DNA from: an uncultured Flavobacteriaceae bacterium
Lineage (GTDB): Bacteria > Bacteroidota > Bacteroidia > Flavobacteriales > Flavobacteriaceae
NCBI GenBank assembly: GCA_937924845.1
Contig: CALDUQ010000018.1
Span: 1 to 49,535 of the forward strand
Length of the DNA stretch: 49,535 nucleotides
Reading direction: 5' to 3'
Part shown: piece after piece, positions 2,557 to 15,295 of the stretch
Numbering within the stretch: position 1 is the stretch's first letter
Layout of the letters: each line of letters begins with the position of its first letter
Notes under the pieces: model-generated
The model's database searches: none
The model's input: only the letters and a program-made list of their open reading frames with translations
What the model was told of the DNA's origin: nothing
Translations under genes and position numbers: made by a program

Positions 2557-3792
2557 TTAGTTGCTTGTGGTTTTAATGCCTACGGAATTTAAATCATGCC
2601 AAAAATCGGGATAAGATTTTGAAACCACTTGGGCGTCATTAATTGTAAATTCCTGTTTTAGCGCCAACGGAGCAAAAGCCATTGCCATTCGATGGTCATG
2701 GTAGGTGTTTATTGCAACATGTTGGTTTAGGTTTTTAATTTTGTTTATGCGTAAGCTATCTTTAGTTATAATAACTTCAGTCCCAAATTTTTCAATTTCA
2801 TTTTTTAAGGCTTGTAATCGATCGGTTTCTTTAATTTTTAAGGTGTGAAGCCCAGTTATATGGCATGGTATGTTTAGTCCTAAGCAGGTAACTGCAATTG
2901 TTTGAGCTATATCGGGCGCATTTGCCAAATCATAATTAAAAGCTGCATTAGCAGTAGGTTTACTGGTTTTTTGTAATGTAATATTGTGGGAGCTAAAACT
3001 AGTTTTAACACCAAATTGCTCATAAATTGAAGCCAAAACAGAGTCACCCTGTAGGCTGTTTTGCTTGTAAGATGACAGTGTTATTGCTGCGCCAATATCA
3101 CTTAAAGCTATTAGGCTGTAAAAGTATGATGCCGATGACCAATCTGACTCAACAATTAAAGTTTTTTGCTCAATTGGTTGTTTTGCCGAAACAATGGTTA
3201 TGGTGTTATTGTTAAATGATGTTTGTATGCCAATTTGGTTTAATAAATTAAGCGTCATTTTTATATATGGTACCGATGTAATTTGACCTTGAAGGTTAAT
3301 AGTAAAACCATTTTTAAATTTGCTGCCAATTAAAATTAGTGCCGAAATATATTGACTGCTAATATTTGCTTTAATCGAAACCGTATTTTTAACTAATTGT
3401 TTACCTGTTATTTTAATAGGTGGATAGCCTTCATGTTTTACATAACTAATACTAGCGCCAAGGCTATTTAAAGCATCAACTAGCACTTTTATAGGGCGTT
3501 CCTGCATACGGTTTGATCCTGTAAGTGTTATAGATGCATTAGTATTGTTGCTAGCAAAGTAGGCGGTTAAAAATCGCATGGCTGTACCAGCGTGGTTTAT
3601 GTCAATAATAGCTTCGTTAGATTGCAGGGCTTTTTGCATTAACTGCGAATCATCAGAATTAGAAATGTTTTTAATAGACAGTTTAGGGTATAAAGCTTGA
3701 AGTAAAAGCAGCCGATTGGATTCGCTTTTAGAGCCAGTAATTGTTATGTGCTGATTGTTTTTTAAAACAGATTTTTCTAATCGTAAATTCAT
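2557..3792 (-). CDS. aroA: 3-phosphoshikimate 1-carboxyvinyltransferase (EPSP synthase)
   Basis: Joins phosphoenolpyruvate to shikimate-3-phosphate, the sixth step of the shikimate pathway. Motifs seen are GSKSESNR at 20-27 (substrate-binding Lys and Ser), HAGTAMRFL at 67-75, RMQERPIKVLVDAL from 95, the NAPDIAQT stretch with the catalytic-region Asp, KETDRL, and YHDHRMAMA near the C-terminus. The 411 residues are slightly short for the family but all core motifs are present. It starts 3 nt after the MazG-like gene, so it is the distal member of the attenuator-controlled aromatic operon. Confidence 0.95.
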   Translation of the reverse strand: MNLRLEKSVLKNNQHITITGSKSESNRLLLLQALYPKLSIKNISNSDDSQLMQKALQSNEAIIDINHAGTAMRFLTAYFASNNTNASITLTGSNRMQERPIKVLVDALNSLGASISYVKHEGYPPIKITGKQLVKNTVSIKANISSQYISALILIGSKFKNGFTINLQGQITSVPYIKMTLNLLNQIGIQTSFNNNTITIVSAKQPIEQKTLIVESDWSSASYFYSLIALSDIGAAITLSSYKQNSLQGDSVLASIYEQFGVKTSFSSHNITLQKTSKPTANAAFNYDLANAPDIAQTIAVTCLGLNIPCHITGLHTLKIKETDRLQALKNEIEKFGTEVIITKDSLRINKIKNLNQHVAINTYHDHRMAMAFAPLALKQEFTINDAQVVSKSYPDFWHDLNSVGIKTTSN

Positions 3793-5569: not shown

Positions 5570-6652
5570 TTAGTTTTTAATAACTTTTTCTTGATGATTT
5601 ATTGATTCTTGATGAATGGCTTTAAACATACGTAAAATAAATTCTTCACTCAAGTTTTTTTCTTCACCTTCTAAAATCATATTGCCCAAAATTTCGTTCC
5701 AACGTTTGGATTGCAAAACGGCAACGTTTTTTTCTTTTTTAAGTTGTCCTATTTCTCTAGATATGGTCATGCGTTTACCAAGTAAATCAACCAATTGGTT
5801 GTCGGCAACATTAATTTGTGCACGAAGACTTTCTAAAGAGTCTTTATAGCTTGCATCTGTATTAGTTTCTTTTCTAATTGTTAAATCACTCATGATTTGC
5901 TTTAAGGTATTTGGCGTTACTTGTTGAGCCGCATCACTCCAAGCATTGTCAGGATCGGTGTGAGTTTCAATCATTAAGCCGTCAAAATTTAAATCTAAAG
6001 CGGTTTGTGATACATCAAAAATCATTTTTCTGTTTCCTGTAATATGTGAAGGGTCACAAATTAAAGGTAAATCAGGAAATTTGTTTTGAAATTCTATGGC
6101 AAGTTGCCATTCGGGGATGTTTCTGTACTTGGTTTTTTCGTAAGTAGAAAAACCTCTATGTATAGCGCCTAGATTTTTAATATTTGCTGTGTATAAGCGT
6201 TCAATACCACCTAGCCACAATGCTAAATCTGGGTTTACAGGATTTTTTACAAGTACAATTTTGTCAGTTCCGTTTAAAGCATCAGCAATTTCTTGCATAA
6301 TAAAAGGCGAAACGGTTGATCGTGCACCTATCCATAATAAATCGATATCATGCTCTAAGGCTAGTTTTACGTGTGCTGCATTTGCAACTTCGGTACAGGT
6401 TTTCATACCTGTTTCTTCTTTAACTTTTTGTAGCCATTTTAAGCCTAACGCGCCTACGCCTTCAAAGTTTCCTGGACGTGTTCTTGGTTTCCAAATACCA
6501 GCTCTGTAATAGTTAACATCAGAATCTTTTAATTCGTGCGCAATTTTTAAAACCTGTTCTTCGGTTTCTGCACTACAAGGCCCTGCTATTACTAGTGGAT
6601 GCGCTAAATTGATATCATCCAACCATGTTCTTAATTCTTTTTTGTTTTCCAT
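5570..6652 (-). CDS. Bifunctional 3-deoxy-7-phosphoheptulonate synthase / chorismate mutase (type II CM)
   Basis: Catalyses the first shikimate step (PEP plus erythrose-4-phosphate to DAHP) and also chorismate to prephenate. The N-terminal about 260 residues are a type I-beta/NeuB-like DAHP synthase (VIAGPCSAE at 21-29, WKPRTRPG at 54-61, CDPSHITG). A C-terminal AroQ-type helical chorismate mutase follows from about 268 (SLESLRAQINVAD, then LLGKRMTISREIGQLK). The fusion is usual in Bacteroidota. With pheA, tyrA and the aminotransferase it makes the operon self-sufficient for directing carbon from DAHP through prephenate to Phe and Tyr. In this fusion class the mutase part often serves as the allosteric sensor. 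Confidence 0.93.
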   Translation of the reverse strand: MENKKELRTWLDDINLAHPLVIAGPCSAETEEQVLKIAHELKDSDVNYYRAGIWKPRTRPGNFEGVGALGLKWLQKVKEETGMKTCTEVANAAHVKLALEHDIDLLWIGARSTVSPFIMQEIADALNGTDKIVLVKNPVNPDLALWLGGIERLYTANIKNLGAIHRGFSTYEKTKYRNIPEWQLAIEFQNKFPDLPLICDPSHITGNRKMIFDVSQTALDLNFDGLMIETHTDPDNAWSDAAQQVTPNTLKQIMSDLTIRKETNTDASYKDSLESLRAQINVADNQLVDLLGKRMTISREIGQLKKEKNVAVLQSKRWNEILGNMILEGEEKNLSEEFILRMFKAIHQESINHQEKVIKN

Positions 6653-6662
6653 TTTTCTCGGT

Positions 6663-7511
6663 TTAAATTCCTTTTAGTATTTGTTTTATATAATTAGTCG
6701 ATTCCATTGCTGTTTTTATTGCCTCAAAGTTGTCTTTTTCCATTAAGGTTTTAAAAGTTGTAAGGTTATTTATGTATTCGTTTAAGGTTTCAATAACATT
6801 ACTCTTATTTTGTTTAAAAATAGGCGCCCACATATTTGGTGAGCTTTTTGCTAACCTTACGGTAGATTCAAATCCGCTGCCAGCCATGTCAAAAATATCA
6901 CGCTCATTTTTTGCTTTTTCAATAACAGTTTTACCTAGCATAAATGAGCTAATGTGCGACAGGTGGGATACATAGGCAATGTGTTGGTCATGTGCCTCTG
7001 GGTTCATATACCTAATGCGCATGCCTATATCTTGAAATAATTTTAATGCCTTTTCTTGTAGTTTAAAGGTTGTTTTTTCGACCTCACAAATGATATTAGT
7101 TTTGCCTTCAAATAAATTTGAAATGGCTGCTTTTGGTCCAGAAAATTCTGTTCCTGCAATTGGGTGTGTTGCTAAAAAATTACGACGGTTAGGATGTTGT
7201 TCTACTACTTTACAAATGTCCATTTTTGTTGAGCCAACATCAATAACTAAGGTGTTTATGTTTATCAAATCTAGTAACTGGGGTAGTAATTTAACCGTTT
7301 TGTCAACAGGTATTGCTACAATCACTAAATCGGCATTTTTAATATCTACCAAATTTGCTTTTTTGTCGATTAAATGAAGCTTAATAGCTTGATTTAAGTG
7401 CTCGTCGCTATGGTCTACCCCAAAAATTGTTGCATTTGGGTTTGCTTTTTTTATTGATAAAGCCAAGCTGCCTCCAATTAAACCAACGCCTATTATATAT
7501 ATGTTTTTCAT
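6663..7511 (-). CDS. tyrA: Prephenate dehydrogenase
   Basis: NAD(P)-dependent oxidative decarboxylation of prephenate to 4-hydroxyphenylpyruvate, the Tyr precursor. The Rossmann motif GVGLIGGSLA is at 8-17, DVGSTK at 91-96, and the catalytic THPIAGTEFSG at 115-125; a helical dimerisation domain fills the rest. The 282-residue protein ends without an ACT domain. Its ATG overlaps the aminotransferase stop in ATGA (7508-7511), so translation is coupled. Confidence 0.93.
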   Translation of the reverse strand: MKNIYIIGVGLIGGSLALSIKKANPNATIFGVDHSDEHLNQAIKLHLIDKKANLVDIKNADLVIVAIPVDKTVKLLPQLLDLININTLVIDVGSTKMDICKVVEQHPNRRNFLATHPIAGTEFSGPKAAISNLFEGKTNIICEVEKTTFKLQEKALKLFQDIGMRIRYMNPEAHDQHIAYVSHLSHISSFMLGKTVIEKAKNERDIFDMAGSGFESTVRLAKSSPNMWAPIFKQNKSNVIETLNEYINNLTTFKTLMEKDNFEAIKTAMESTNYIKQILKGI

Positions 7512-8656
7512 TGGTTAAGTCGTTTTAAAGCATCGTTAAGTTGCTGTTGGTTTGCACATAATGAAAACCTAATATAGCCCTCGCCTTTACTGCCAAAAAT
7601 AGTACCAGGGGTAATAAATATATGATTGTTTTTTAGTATGTTATCAATTACGGTTTCAGAGGTTTGGCCTTTAGGTAATTTTGCCCAAACAAACATTCCG
7701 CTAGTATTTTTGCTGTAGGTACAGTTAAGTTTATCGGCTAATAGCCAAGTTAATTCTCGTCTTTTTTTATAAATAGAGTTGATGTGTTTAAACCAATCGT
7801 CCGAAAGGTTTAAAGCTTCAATAGCGCCTTTTTGTAAGCCAAAAAACATGCCAGAGTCCATGTTGCTTTTTACTTTCAAAATATTTTGAATGATGTGCTT
7901 GTTTCCTAAAACCATACCCACACGCCATCCAGCCATATTAAAGGTTTTACTTAGCGAGTTAAGTTCAATCGCTACATCTTTGGCGCCTTCGATTTGTAAA
8001 ATACTAATGGGGTTATCGTTAAGTATAAAGCTATAAGGGTTGTCATTTACAATTAAAATTGAATGGCGTTTAGCAAAAGCAATTAGGTTTTTAAAAAGTT
8101 GTAAAGGCGCGTTTGTTCCTGTTGGCATGTGCGGGTAATTTACCCACATTAGTTTCACTTTACTTAAATCGGTGTTTTCTAAAGCTTCAAAATTTGGTAA
8201 CCAATTATTGGTTTCCTCCAAATCATAAAACCGTGGTGTTGCACCCACTAATTTTGTGACCGATTGGTAGGTTGGGTAGCCAGGGTTGGGTATTAATACC
8301 TGGTCACCAGCGTTTAAATACGCCATTGAAATGTGCATAATACCTTCCTTACTTCCCATTAATGGTAAAATTTCATGGTCAGGGTTTACATTTACCTTAA
8401 AATTTTTATTATAAAATTGAGAAATAGCCAGCCTTAACTCAGGTAAACCTTGATAGCTTTGATATTTGTGGGCTGTTGTGTTGTTTATACTTTGTGTTAA
8501 AGCTGTAGTTACCGCAGTTGGAGGTTGTAAATCAGGGCTGCCAATACCAAGATTGATAACAGATTTTCCTTCAGCATTCATTGCTGCTACTTCTTTTAGT
8601 TTTCTTGAAAAATAATATTCTTCAACAGTTTGTAGTCGGTTGGCGGCTCTAATCAT
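7508..8656 (-). CDS. Class I/II PLP aminotransferase of the aromatic pathway
   Basis: A fold-type I aminotransferase, 382 residues from the chosen ATG at 8656 (an in-frame TTG at 8680 lies deeper inside pheA and is less likely). The PLP-binding lysine is in NSLSKTFNMAGWR (Lys237). The LGIGSPD N-terminal motif, PNPGYPTY, NYPHMPTG and NDNPY motifs are also seen. Placed between pheA and tyrA, it most likely transaminates phenylpyruvate/4-hydroxyphenylpyruvate or prephenate; a generic aspartate-type substrate cannot be excluded. It overlaps the 3' end of pheA by 8 nt. Confidence 0.88.
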   Translation of the reverse strand: MIRAANRLQTVEEYYFSRKLKEVAAMNAEGKSVINLGIGSPDLQPPTAVTTALTQSINNTTAHKYQSYQGLPELRLAISQFYNKNFKVNVNPDHEILPLMGSKEGIMHISMAYLNAGDQVLIPNPGYPTYQSVTKLVGATPRFYDLEETNNWLPNFEALENTDLSKVKLMWVNYPHMPTGTNAPLQLFKNLIAFAKRHSILIVNDNPYSFILNDNPISILQIEGAKDVAIELNSLSKTFNMAGWRVGMVLGNKHIIQNILKVKSNMDSGMFFGLQKGAIEALNLSDDWFKHINSIYKKRRELTWLLADKLNCTYSKNTSGMFVWAKLPKGQTSETVIDNILKNNHIFITPGTIFGSKGEGYIRFSLCANQQQLNDALKRLNQ

Positions 8657-9479
8657 TTTTTCCGTTTTTATATTCACCAAGTACTTTAAATTCTTCTGCC
8701 ATAATAATCATTAATGACTTTGCTTTTTGATAATCTTCATACAAATTAAAAGTCACGTCTACAAAAAATGAATACACCCATGGAGTGTTAATTTTTGGTA
8801 ATGATTGTATTTTGGTTAGGTTTAATTTACAGTCACTCATCACATTTAAAATTGCGGCAAGGCTACCTCGTTTATGGTCTAATTCAAATTTTAATGACGC
8901 TTTGTTAACAATAGTTTTGTCAGTTTTTGAATTGTTTTTTTGAACAACAACAAACCGTGTTTCGTTATGTTTAATGGTTTGAATGCTTTCTGCAAGCAAT
9001 TTTAATTTAAATATTTTTGCAGCCGATTTACTGGCTATAGCGCCAATGTGCTTTATTTGATTATCATGAATACGTTTAGCAACCTCGGCAGTATCTTTAT
9101 CTTCAACCAATTTAATATGCGGATGGTTTTTAAAAAACGACTTACATTGTAAAAGCGCCATGGGATGAGAGTGTACCTCGGTAATGTCACTAATGTTTTG
9201 ACCGTTTAAAGCCATTAAGTTATGTTGAATATCAAGGTAGTACTCATCAATAATGGTAAGGTTATTGTTGTCAATCAAAGCATAATTAGGTATGATAGAT
9301 CCCGCAATTGAGTTTTCGAGCGCCATAATACCTAAGTCACAGGTGTTGTTTGTTAAGCTGTCAACAAGTTCATCAAAACTTAAACATTTATTTAAAGTGA
9401 TAGTGTTGTCAAAAAAATGTTGACTAACAGCATGATGAAATGAGCCTTCTATACCTTGTATTGCTATTGATTTGTTCAT
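8649..9479 (-). CDS. pheA: Prephenate dehydratase
   Basis: Converts prephenate to phenylpyruvate, the committed step to Phe. A periplasmic-binding-like PDT domain spans 1-180 (ALENSIAGSI at 53-62, HPMALLQC at 105-112, catalytic TRF at 174-176). A C-terminal ACT domain occupies about 195-270. The usual ACT effector motifs are altered: RGSL where GALV is typical and QSLP where ESRP is typical, so feedback inhibition by Phe may be weaker or different. It is the first gene of the operon, and its ATG is one base from the end of an attenuator terminator, so it is expressed only on readthrough. Confidence 0.94.
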   Translation of the reverse strand: MNKSIAIQGIEGSFHHAVSQHFFDNTITLNKCLSFDELVDSLTNNTCDLGIMALENSIAGSIIPNYALIDNNNLTIIDEYYLDIQHNLMALNGQNISDITEVHSHPMALLQCKSFFKNHPHIKLVEDKDTAEVAKRIHDNQIKHIGAIASKSAAKIFKLKLLAESIQTIKHNETRFVVVQKNNSKTDKTIVNKASLKFELDHKRGSLAAILNVMSDCKLNLTKIQSLPKINTPWVYSFFVDVTFNLYEDYQKAKSLMIIMAEEFKVLGEYKNGKND

Positions 9480-9480
9480 A

Positions 9481-9510
9481 AAAAAAAGTCTCGATGTTTT
9501 ATCGAGACTT
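9481..9510 (-). terminator. Attenuator terminator (regions 3:4) directly before pheA
   Basis: On the minus strand a perfect 10-bp stem (9510-9501 with 9495-9486, AAGTCTCGAT/ATCGAGACTT) with a 5-nt loop is followed by a run of T that reaches the pheA start codon. This is a strong intrinsic terminator placed upstream of, not behind, a gene. Confidence 0.93.
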
Positions 9511-9619
9511 AGTATTTTTCGGTTAATTTATAATTTATAACTTACATTTACACAGTCTCGCTTCTTCCAAAAAAGAAGAAGTAAAAATAAGTGTAATATG
9601 TTAGTTTTGTAAAATTCAT
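9486..9619 (-). promoter_or_regulatory. Phe/Tyr operon transcription attenuator (leader-peptide type)
   Basis: Four pairing segments are visible on the minus strand. Region 1 is CTTCTTC (9581-9575), made of the Phe codons of the leader peptide. Region 2 is GAAGAAGCGAGACT (9567-9554). Region 3 is the left arm (9510-9501) and region 4 the right arm (9495-9486) of the terminator. Region 1 pairs with 2 (7 bp, 7-nt loop), 3 with 4 (10 bp), and alternatively 2 with 3 (CGAGACT 9560-9554 with AGTCTCG 9509-9503, 7 bp). Stalling at the Phe codons would mask region 1, free region 2, form 2:3 and prevent termination. Completing the peptide would cover region 2 and allow the terminator. This is the logic of the E. 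coli pheA and trp attenuators. Confidence 0.88.
9548..9619 (-). CDS. Phe/Tyr-rich leader peptide of the pheA operon
   Basis: ATG at 9619-9617 opens a 23-codon frame ending in TAA at 9550-9548. The peptide starts MNFTKL and carries Tyr at 8, 9, 11 and 13 and Phe at 3, 12 and 14-17, ending GRSETV. Ten of 23 residues are Phe or Tyr, the two end products of the downstream genes, and four consecutive Phe codons overlap the first attenuator segment. The stop codon lies 6 nt past region 2, the right place for a terminating ribosome to block it. Its role is regulatory; no function of the peptide itself is expected. Confidence 0.88.
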   Translation of the reverse strand: MNFTKLTYYTYFYFFFFGRSETV

Positions 9620-9629
9620 TTATACATTG

Positions 9630-9659
9630 CTAAAGTAAATAATATTTTAAAAAATCAAA
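9630..9659 (-). promoter_or_regulatory. Predicted promoter of the attenuated aromatic operon
   Basis: On the minus strand TTTG (9659-9656) is followed after 18 nt by TACTTTAG (9637-9630), 7 of 8 matches to TAnnTTTG. The start site would fall near 9625, leaving only a few bases before the leader peptide ATG, so the leader would be nearly leaderless. A second TTTG at 9664-9661 gives a 23-nt spacing. Confidence 0.45.
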
Positions 9660-9740: not shown

Positions 9741-10634
9741 ATGTCTATAGAAGTAAATCACGTTTCAAAAATTTATGGCAAACAGGTTGCATTAAACGAT
9801 GTGTCATTTAAAATTAAAAGTCCTGAAGTGGTTGGTTTTTTAGGTCCAAATGGAGCAGGAAAATCAACCATGATGAAAATTTTAACTACTTATTTAGAGC
9901 CAGATTCAGGTGAGGTGGTCGTTTCAGGTTTCTCTGCTAAGCAAAATCAGTATAAAATAAAACAAAGGGTGGGATACTTGTCTGAGCAAAACCCATTATA
10001 TTTTGAAATGTATGTTAGGGAGTATTTGAGTTTTGTTGCAAAAACGCATAAAATTAAAGCCAATCGTATTGAAAATGTTATTGATATTACAGGCTTAACG
10101 CCTGAAGCGCATAAAAAAATTGAACAACTTTCTAAAGGTTATAAACAACGAGTTGGTTTGGCGGCTGCATTATTACACGATCCCGATGTGTTAATATTAG
10201 ATGAGCCTACAACAGGGCTTGACCCTAATCAATTATTGGAGGTAAGGCGGTTGATTAAAAATTTAGGCAAGCACAAAACCGTATTTTTATCAACACATAT
10301 CATGCAAGAGGTTGAAGCGATGTGTGATCGAGTTATTATTATTGATAAAGGTAAAATTGTAGCCGATAAGCATTTAGCAGATTTAAAAAAAGGGCAATCT
10401 CAAGTTATTGTTGTGGAGTTTGATTATAGGGTTGAAGATGCGTTTTTACTAAAGTTGCCTAACGTTAAAGCTGTTAAAAATACATTTGGTTTTGTTTATG
10501 AAATTACGTTTTCAACAGATGTTGATATGCGACCTTCAGTATTTGATTTTGCAAATTCAAACCAATTAAAAATTTTACAGCTTAATCAAAAAAATAATAA
10601 TCTCGAAACTTTGTTTAGAGATTTGACAAGTTAA
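9741..10634 (+). CDS. gldA: Gliding motility-associated ABC transporter ATP-binding protein GldA
   Basis: A 297-residue ABC ATPase with Walker A GPNGAGKS (35-42), Q-loop region YLSEQNPLYFEM, signature LSKGY (130-134), Walker B LILDEP (151-156) and an H-loop in LSTHIMQEVEAMCD. The MSIEVNHVSKIYGKQVALND start and C-terminal extension match GldA, which works with the membrane proteins GldF and GldG in flavobacterial gliding. Those partners are not adjacent here, as in many Flavobacteriaceae. An ordinary ABC-2 exporter ATPase is the alternative. It is divergent from the pheA leader across about 120 nt; no clear plus-strand -7 box was found. Confidence 0.85.
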   Translation: MSIEVNHVSKIYGKQVALNDVSFKIKSPEVVGFLGPNGAGKSTMMKILTTYLEPDSGEVVVSGFSAKQNQYKIKQRVGYLSEQNPLYFEMYVREYLSFVAKTHKIKANRIENVIDITGLTPEAHKKIEQLSKGYKQRVGLAAALLHDPDVLILDEPTTGLDPNQLLEVRRLIKNLGKHKTVFLSTHIMQEVEAMCDRVIIIDKGKIVADKHLADLKKGQSQVIVVEFDYRVEDAFLLKLPNVKAVKNTFGFVYEITFSTDVDMRPSVFDFANSNQLKILQLNQKNNNLETLFRDLTS

Positions 10635-10775: not shown

Positions 10776-10904
10776 ATGTTATTAAGAAAGACCGAGGGAT
10801 TAGACCCAACGACGTCTTGGCAACCCTTTAATAGTTAGTATAGCTAAAAAAATTATTAAAGAAGGTGCTAAATTCTACCAAAAAATATTTTGGATAGATA
10901 ACAT
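10776..10904 (+). ncRNA. SAM-I (S-box) riboswitch aptamer
   Basis: P1 is formed by ATGTTAT (10776-10782) and ATAACAT (10898-10904). Inside are the conserved GAGGGAUU, a P2b AGAC/GUCU stem, UGGCAACC (10818-10825), a P3 stem CUUUAAUA/UAUUAAAG (10825-10832 with 10854-10861), the hallmark AAGGUGCUAAAUUC, and a P4 CCAAAA/UUUUGG stem before AGAUAA. The aptamer binds S-adenosylmethionine and here precedes metY and metX, so high SAM should reduce methionine synthesis. Confidence 0.93.
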
Positions 10905-11016: not shown

Positions 11017-12306
11017 ATGAGCAATCACAATTTCGCAACAAAGGCATTACACTCAGGGCATGATGTAAACAAAAACGGGGGTACGCGCGCAGTGCCAATT
11101 TACCAATCATCAGCATACGTGTTTAAAAACTCTGATGATGCAGCAGGACGATTTAATTTGTCAATTCCCGATTTTATTTATACGCGGTTAAATAACCCGA
11201 CTACCGATGTTTTAGAAAAACGCTTAGCCGATCTTGAAGGCGGTATTGCGGCAGTAGCAACAGCCTCAGGTGCATCGGCAATTTCAACCACTTTATTAAC
11301 GCTGTTACGTGCTGGCGACCATATAGTGGCTTCAAATAGCTTGTATGGCGGCACATACAATTTGTTAAGTGTAACATTGCCTAGGCATGGTATTACAACC
11401 ACATTTGTTGACCCATCTGATCCTGAAAATTTTGCAAAAGCGGCACAGCAAAATACCAGAGCCGTATTTATAGAATCACTAGGAAATCCAAAACTTGATG
11501 TTTTAGATATCGAATTAATTGCCCAGCAAACAAAAGCGCTAAAGGTGCCGTTAATTGTTGATAATACAGTGGCAACACCAAGTTTGTTAAACCCAATACA
11601 ATATGGTGCGAATATTGTTATCCATTCACTTACAAAATATATTAACGGTACTGGTACGGCTTTAGGTGGTGTTATAATTGATGCAGGTACATTTGATTGG
11701 ACTAACGGAAAGTTTCCTGAATTTACCGAGCCATCCGCAGGATATCATGGTTTGGTATATAGCGAAGTGTTAAAAGAAGCTGCTTTTATTGCGAAAATCA
11801 GGATTGAAGGCTTGCGTGATTATGGTAGTGCGTTAAGTCCGTTTAACACATTTTTAATCCTTCAGGGTTTAGAAACTTTAGATATCAGGATTAAACAGCA
11901 TAGCGAAAACGCTTTAAAATTAGCAACTTGGTTAGAAAGTAATGATGAGGTGGCTTGGGTAAATTATCCAGGATTAGCATCTAGTAAATTTAAAAATTTG
12001 TCAAACAAATATTTGCCAAAAGGGCAAAGTGGTATTGTTACTTTTGGATTAAAAGGCGGTTTTGAAGCGGCAAAAAAGGTGGTAGACTCAACTAAAGTAT
12101 TTTCGTTATTAGCTAATATTGGCGACACAAAATCTTTAATTATCCATCCAGCTAGTACTACACATCAACAATTAAATGAGATCCAACAAAACGCTACTGG
12201 TGTTACTGCCGATTTAATTAGATTATCCGTAGGTATAGAAAATATTGAAGATTTAAAGCAAGATTTAAAAGCTGCATTTAAGTTAATTAGCCATGTATTA
12301 GCTTAA
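11017..12306 (+). CDS. metY: O-acetylhomoserine aminocarboxypropyltransferase (sulfhydrylase)
   Basis: A PLP-dependent Cys/Met-metabolism enzyme that makes homocysteine (or methionine) from O-acetylhomoserine and sulfide (or methanethiol). The Schiff-base lysine is in HSLTKYINGTG (Lys207), with YTRLNNPT at 55-62, TASGASA at 82-88 and VDNTVATP at 181-188. The 429-residue length and HSGHDVNKNGGTRAVPIYQ start match MetY rather than cystathionine gamma-synthase. It is the first gene under the SAM riboswitch, with metX after it. Confidence 0.93.
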   Translation: MSNHNFATKALHSGHDVNKNGGTRAVPIYQSSAYVFKNSDDAAGRFNLSIPDFIYTRLNNPTTDVLEKRLADLEGGIAAVATASGASAISTTLLTLLRAGDHIVASNSLYGGTYNLLSVTLPRHGITTTFVDPSDPENFAKAAQQNTRAVFIESLGNPKLDVLDIELIAQQTKALKVPLIVDNTVATPSLLNPIQYGANIVIHSLTKYINGTGTALGGVIIDAGTFDWTNGKFPEFTEPSAGYHGLVYSEVLKEAAFIAKIRIEGLRDYGSALSPFNTFLILQGLETLDIRIKQHSENALKLATWLESNDEVAWVNYPGLASSKFKNLSNKYLPKGQSGIVTFGLKGGFEAAKKVVDSTKVFSLLANIGDTKSLIIHPASTTHQQLNEIQQNATGVTADLIRLSVGIENIEDLKQDLKAAFKLISHVLA

Positions 12307-14765: not shown

Positions 14766-15026
14766 TTAATTTTTGTAGTGATAACGGCAGGCGGCAATAA
14801 GTAACTGTGTGTTTTCGTATTTGTATACCAAGCGATGCTCGGAAGTTATTCGTCTAGACCAATAGCCTTGTAAATCACCTTTTAGGGCTTCAGGTTTTCC
14901 TATGCCTTCAAAAGGAGTTAGTAAGCAAACTTTAATTAAATTATTAATGCGTTGCGTCACTTTTTTGTCAACTTTTTGCCAATATAAGTAGTCTTCCCAA
15001 GATGATGTTGACCAAATTAACCTCAC
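14766..15026 (-). CDS. yoeB: YoeB/Txe family mRNA interferase toxin
   Basis: A ribosome-dependent endoribonuclease that cleaves mRNA at the A site. The 86-residue protein has Glu46, Arg65 and His83, the same positions as the catalytic residues of E. coli YoeB (84 residues), plus the family strings GKPEALKGDLQG and HRLVY. It begins with GTG, one base after the antitoxin stop, which favours coupled and lower translation than the antitoxin. The active-site residues are all present, so the toxin is probably functional. Confidence 0.93.
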   Translation of the reverse strand: MRLIWSTSSWEDYLYWQKVDKKVTQRINNLIKVCLLTPFEGIGKPEALKGDLQGYWSRRITSEHRLVYKYENTQLLIAACRYHYKN

Positions 15027-15027
15027 T

Positions 15028-15276
15028 TTATTCGATTAATTTTTTTTCTGTACCTCTGCCAGCTTCTAACTCTTTAATAGAATTTAATAAAACATCTCTA
15101 TTATTACCTGTTAATAAATAGGTGGTTTCTTTTAAAGAATTGTACTCGTCTAATGATATTAACACTAGATCCTTGCCGTTTTTTCTTTTTATGATAATAT
15201 CACTAACATCATTAATTACTTTGTCGAACCAGTGCTTTAGGTTTGAGCGAAAATCTGTATAATTTACTGTTTCCAT
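15028..15276 (-). CDS. yefM: YefM/Phd family antitoxin
   Basis: An 82-residue antitoxin that neutralises YoeB through a C-terminal tail and represses the operon through its N-terminal Phd/YefM fold (METVNYTDFRSNLKHW, then IIKRKNGKDLVLISLDEY). The ATG at 15276 is preferred over an in-frame ATG five codons upstream, because METVNYTDFR is the standard family start and the upstream codons come closer to the operator. The toxin gene follows after one base. Confidence 0.92.
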   Translation of the reverse strand: METVNYTDFRSNLKHWFDKVINDVSDIIIKRKNGKDLVLISLDEYNSLKETTYLLTGNNRDVLLNSIKELEAGRGTEKKLIE

Positions 15277-15295
15277 AAAGCTAAAATACAAAAAA

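Follow-up and report, generated by a model that had tools for sequence, protein, structure and literature searches.

The region upstream of pheA in the window, i.e. the whole 49,535-nucleotide stretch of DNA analysed here from an uncultured Flavobacteriaceae bacterium, is read as a ribosome-controlled transcription attenuator of a pheA–aminotransferase–tyrA–DAHP synthase/chorismate mutase operon, with a probability of roughly 0.87. The genes of this operon were assigned as follows:

8649..9479, minus strand: pheA, prephenate dehydratase (PF00800, E 8e-55), with its ATG at 9479
7508..8680, minus strand: class I/II aminotransferase (PF00155), probably the aromatic transaminase of the operon, with its substrate taken from context
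6663..7511, minus strand: tyrA, prephenate dehydrogenase (NF006307, above cut-off, 392 bits)
5570..6652, minus strand: DAHP synthase fused to chorismate mutase (PF00793 and PF01817)

The DAHP synthase of the operon is the only recognisable one in the genome, and nearly every relative had one type I DAHP synthase match besides KDO8P synthase, and no type II match. Two neighbouring genes were named from sequence only: an EPSP-synthase-like gene (aroA, window 2557-3792, minus strand), which lies 3' of the DAHP synthase gene and is possibly carried on the same long transcript, and an ABC-transporter-like gene, which begins at 9741 on the plus strand and is the divergent upstream neighbour of the leader.

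A promoter, leader peptide, hairpins, and terminator had been proposed by a sequence-only reading of this DNA, and all of these parts were found on the minus strand at the coordinates it gave:

9630..9659, minus strand: Bacteroidota-type promoter (TTTG at 9659-9656, 18-nt spacer, TACTTTAG at 9637-9630; 9/10 match to TTTG-N18-TAnnTTTG)
9548..9619, minus strand: leader ORF of 23 codons, MNFTKLTYYTYFYFFFFGRSETV and stop (ATG 9619-9617, TAA 9550-9548)
9574..9581, minus strand: region 1, CTTCTTCT, Phe codons, left arm of hairpin 1:2a (from folding and covariation)
9561..9568, minus strand: region 2a, GGAAGAAG, right arm of hairpin 1:2a, with compensatory changes at four of its pairs
9554..9560, minus strand: region 2b, antiterminator strand CGAGACT, adjoining 2a and lying within leader codons 20-22
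9501..9510, minus strand: region 3, AAGTCTCGAT, partner of 2b (antiterminator) or of region 4 (terminator)
9486..9495, minus strand: region 4, ATCGAGACTT, the right-hand strand of the terminator stem
9480..9487, minus strand: U-run that completes the intrinsic terminator and extends up to the pheA start codon

The leader ORF of the window has 4 Tyr, 6 Phe, and 0 Trp codons, with the sensor codons being Y8 Y9 Y11 F12 Y13 F14-F17, so that end-product codons are clustered in a short ORF 5' of a biosynthetic operon. The intrinsic terminator stands ahead of the first structural gene, with a 10-bp stem (9510-9501/9495-9486) and an AAAAC loop between AAGTCTCGAT and ATCGAGACTT, and an AT-rich spacer of 37 nt separates it from the leader stop codon. 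The antiterminator is a 7-bp pairing of 2b CGAGACT with AGTCTCG inside 9510-9501, and shares its bases with the terminator. The promoter was scored with the -7 box consensus TAnnTTTG (PMC9723704). No Rfam family reached its gathering score in the leader in searches at gathering and relaxed thresholds; Trp_leader (RF00513, 21.2 bits, gathering 41) and Phe_leader (RF01859, 20.3 bits, gathering 55) both fell below membership.

The leader segment of the window folded with z = -2.67, and two terminator-like sites (one stem, both strands) were found, versus 0.0 +/- 0.1 in shuffles; the comparative evidence is far stronger than either of these. Using a comparison set of 80 related pheA loci from named Flavobacteriaceae genomes, the full element was recovered at 79, with 76 found by the first parse, and three more in which the leader element was more distant from pheA or the terminator imperfect. 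At the 80th locus, the contig ends 150 nt upstream of pheA, and the terminator is still present. An aromatic-rich leader (at least 7 F/Y/W in 12 codons) was present in 76/81 regions of the Flavobacteriaceae set, versus 26/1620 Markov shuffles, and in 9/183 upstream regions of other genes, some of which may overlap a pheA region. The promoter motif matched at 9/10 or better in 63/74 relatives, with about 2 expected. The comparison shows the ORF with its codons, three helices that covary, and the ribosome-sized spacing described below; we infer leader translation, stalling, termination in vivo, and the identity of the sensed amino acids.

Codon content was counted from the leader start to the last aromatic codon in 40 non-redundant Flavobacteriaceae leaders, giving 185 Phe, 121 Tyr, and 35 Trp among ~610 sensor-zone codons, with other one-step neighbours of Phe codons being rare. 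A Trp codon was present in 35/40 of these leaders; this and the operon's sole DAHP synthase are points absent from the sequence-only reading. In the leader of the window, Thr-Tyr stands in place of the relatives' Asn-Trp, which leaves it with Phe and Tyr as its only aromatic codons. In the commonest leader type, YYNWFYFFF, changes within the core were almost all synonymous or aromatic-for-aromatic, and Trp was invariant, in a subset itself chosen by its TGG codon. Phe sites changed to Tyr and back. Since DAHP synthase is the step common to all three aromatic amino acids, its place in the operon provides a reason for the Trp codon, and the leader may report all three, based on the Trp codon of most family leaders and the sole DAHP synthase, with Tyr and Trp sensing being putative.

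The attenuator might instead be real and sense Phe only, with the Tyr and Trp codons as tolerated fillers, as in AroR of Corynebacterium glutamicum. This is unlikely, but it is the alternative that has to be taken most seriously, and the codons closest to 2b are mostly Phe. AroR is the closest studied analogue, and PMC11802643 (citing Neshat et al. 2014) describes it as a Phe-Tyr-Phe leader 5' of aroF (DAHP synthase) that responds to Phe and not to Tyr, so Tyr or Trp codons need not mean Tyr or Trp sensing. The two systems are alike in having a mixed Phe/Tyr leader before a DAHP synthase gene, and differ in that C. glutamicum belongs to an unrelated phylum and its reported aromatic motif is shorter (PMC11802643). 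Against a Phe-only sensor stand the abundance of Tyr and Trp codons relative to other one-step neighbours of Phe, the interchange of Phe with Tyr, and the occurrence of both Phe and Tyr in 32/32 leaders from other lineages, a set chosen on the F+Y+W sum only. The folding model described below also predicts antitermination for stalls at Tyr and Trp codons, and both Tyr and the precursor common to the three aromatics are products of the operon. Trp codons were found in 7/32 leaders outside Flavobacteriaceae, near the chance rate, and no Trp enrichment is claimed there.

Covariation was scored after 42 non-redundant leaders had been aligned with MAFFT without constraints, and all three helices covaried. 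The 2:3 helix had 17 double-change cells, versus 4.6 in shuffles, with 0/500 shuffles reaching 17. Four pairs with double changes were found in 1:2 and four in 3:4, and these two helices jointly gave 8 double-change pairs and 38 double-change cells (0/500 shuffles); the shuffles retain shared ancestry as a possible contributor to these counts. When the partners were slid out of register, the signal was gone, although 2:3 retained part of it at -1. Inspection across clades showed 2b, 3, and 4 changing together with the register kept (CGAGACT/AGTCTCG/CGAGACT, AGGATT/AATCCT/AGGATT, and GGGATT/AATCCC/GGGATT), and such agreement through several sequence families is hard to account for in any other way. 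RNAalifold recovered only the terminator from the alignment, the outcome to be expected of helices that are mutually exclusive or variable. A further outer helix, joining the Tyr codons to a segment 3' of 2b (in the window, TTACAC/GTGTAA), looked inconsistent in relatives by eye and was discarded. With conserved pairings and codons in relatives, the comparative check that the sequence-only reading had called for, i.e. a Flavobacteriaceae alignment with covariation of 1:2, 2:3, and 3:4 and conservation of codons, bore out its proposal of a transcription attenuator whose leader peptide has Phe and Tyr codons. Its four-region scheme survived in part: all helices are present, but hairpin 1:2a and the 2:3 helix use adjacent bases with none in common (gap 0-3 nt in 62/77 loci), need not exclude each other, and do not quite reproduce the E. 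coli pheA/trp arrangement that it had named.

The distance from the last aromatic codon to 2b was 13-14 nt in 62/75 loci, and 9-17 nt in 28/36 other-lineage leaders of entirely different sequence, a fixed distance corresponding to one ribosome edge. Relative to the first base of 2b, stop codons fell between 9 nt upstream and 23 nt downstream, so that a ribosome at the stop codon, or on its way there, covers 2b. The folding model considers partial transcripts that stop after region 3, at equilibrium, with a ribosome of E. coli footprint set at every codon, and its edge 13 nt past the start of the A-site codon. In this model, the median antiterminator probability of the flavobacterial leaders was 0.65 at the first aromatic codon, 0.03 at the stop codon, and 0.59 on free RNA (0.66 for free RNA of the window), with the antiterminator forming at nearly any stall through the last aromatic codon, and being lost 1-3 codons later. 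Other-lineage leaders, pre-filtered mostly for detectable 2:3 pairing, gave medians of 0.71 at the first aromatic codon, 0.04 at the stop codon, and 0.66 on free RNA. The E. coli controls pheL and trpL behaved as known, producing an antiterminator with the ribosome at the Phe or Trp codons or immediately upstream of them, none at the stop codon, and 0.17 and 0.00, respectively, on free RNA. Further E. coli leaders gave 0.01 (thrL), 0.07 (leuL), and 0.54 (hisL) on free RNA; ilvL was left out of the controls because its terminator was mis-parsed. By folding model and spacing together, a stall is predicted to free the antiterminator strand, and finished translation to cover it.

In the proposed mechanism, transcription would begin just 5' of the short leader ORF, and with charged Tyr- or Phe-tRNA scarce (or Trp-tRNA, in most relatives), the ribosome would stall at an aromatic codon with its front edge 5' of 2b, allowing 2b to pair with region 3 once region 3 is made. 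Formation of 2b:3 would block the terminator, and the operon would be transcribed. With all charged tRNAs plentiful, the ribosome would leave the last aromatic codon behind, reach the stop codon, and cover 2b, regions 3 and 4 would pair, and transcription would end ahead of pheA. A shortage of aromatic amino acids probably switches the operon on, and the off signal is most likely the ribosome itself, passing the last aromatic codon and covering 2b. Hairpin 1:2a would lie beside 2b without competing for it, and may serve as a pause hairpin or as a stacking partner for the antiterminator. Translation initiation in Bacteroidota is mostly without Shine-Dalgarno sequences.

A classical attenuator of the E. 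coli type, with hairpin 1:2 as the competitor of 2:3 and termination in the untranslated leader, was weighed against this mechanism and is improbable here. Hairpin 1:2 is conserved and covarying, as such a type would have it, and a few loci with a longer or overlapping 1:2 had low modelled free-RNA antiterminator values (L009, 0.02; L045, 0.08). In most loci, however, 1:2 and 2:3 abut, and in the model 1:2 does not exclude 2:3 and the untranslated RNA does not favour termination: since hairpin 1:2a ends where 2b begins, 2b is not sequestered, and free RNA favours 2:3, in contrast to pheL, trpL, thrL, and leuL. This difference from E. coli leaders is incomplete, as hisL is not clearly sequestered when free in the model.

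A plain intrinsic terminator with a chance reading frame and no switch is very improbable: AT-rich DNA readily yields Phe/Tyr-rich frames, and the nine control regions noted above were equally aromatic, but the conservation, the covariation of three helices, and the fixed spacing contradict it, and there is no same-strand upstream gene to terminate, the neighbour at 9741 being divergent. A riboswitch or T-box directly sensing an amino acid or tRNA would also have a structured 5' region with a terminator at its end, but is scarcely credible where no Rfam family reached its gathering score and the conserved feature is a codon string.

The element was found in nearly all sampled Flavobacteriaceae, and many further families of the class have it too, as mixed Phe/Tyr leaders of the same geometry. 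The leader was absent with the divergent pheA types of two lineages (f2 and f76), and in most genomes sampled from other classes of the phylum. Four loci (L172-L175), from genomes assigned to other classes but having an unusually close pheA type, carry the leader, with 2:3 clear in 1/4. One locus (L111) has two tandem aromatic leader ORFs (-354 and -192 relative to pheA), each with its own terminator, before one pheA. A broader claim is put forward tentatively, as possible but more doubtful than not: that this is a class-wide attenuator of Bacteroidota that integrates more than one aromatic amino acid, with Phe and Tyr throughout and Trp added in Flavobacteriaceae, placed on the sole-DAHP-synthase operon, having no competing 1:2 protector, and with a ribosome-free default that would be 'on' and turned off by complete leader translation alone.

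Leaders with codons for several operon-linked amino acids are known from E. coli ilvL and thrL, which are alike in this respect, and differ in being branched-chain and threonine leaders and not aromatic ones. E. coli pheL-pheA (RF01859) and trpL (RF00513) share with the flavobacterial leader a leader peptide of cognate codons, a 2:3 antiterminator, and a 3:4 terminator before pheA or trpE; pheL differs in having Phe only, and both in that E. coli free RNA sequesters strand 2, whereas flavobacterial free RNA mostly does not in the model. A 2010 survey described leader-peptide systems as known only from Proteobacteria and Actinobacteria before Firmicutes were added (PMC2965389). For Flavobacterium psychrophilum, a transcriptome study reported strong clues for leader-peptide attenuation 5' of amino-acid operons, and listed a structured pheA 5' element, i.e. 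at the same gene in the same bacterial family, as conserved in other Flavobacteriaceae and without an Rfam hit (PMC9723704), so the novelty claimed by the sequence-only reading was overstated. The main-text passages of that study describe neither a peptide nor pairings and do not address Trp/Tyr content or a wider distribution; overlap with its supplements is possible (PMC9723704). No description of a Phe/Tyr/Trp leader or of class-wide spread was found in the literature searched, largely papers available without subscription. The mechanism is a variant on leader-peptide attenuation, which is already known; the triple-aromatic codon set in Flavobacteriaceae appears new, as do the spread across the class and a 1:2 hairpin that does not compete with 2:3.

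Further features were noted in the same genome and window. The trpE gene (C102, locus L163, ~1311-1455) is preceded by a Trp-Trp leader of its own, MILKLITFWWCNFDTNLS, with a T8 terminator, and at hisG (C69, locus L168, minus strand) there is a leader, MIISKSHHNFKFCCIAS, together with a hairpin resembling a terminator and its T-run. A SAM riboswitch (RF00162, 77.8 bits, window 10776-10904, plus strand) lies 5' of genes at 11017 and 12361 that look like methionine-pathway genes, and a small gene pair at window 14766-15291 (minus strand) resembles YoeB/YefM-type toxin-antitoxin genes, judged by its ORF sequences.

Leader-peptide attenuation is textbook knowledge in E. coli, and little described in Bacteroidota. 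A conserved multi-aromatic leader suggests that ribosome-polymerase coupling is exploited in Bacteroidota too. The leaders form a natural series (Phe/Tyr, Phe/Tyr/Trp, and without Trp) bearing on how several end products are reported by a single leader, and on whether such a switch requires a protector hairpin in the first place, and unannotated leader genes are indicated in many genomes.
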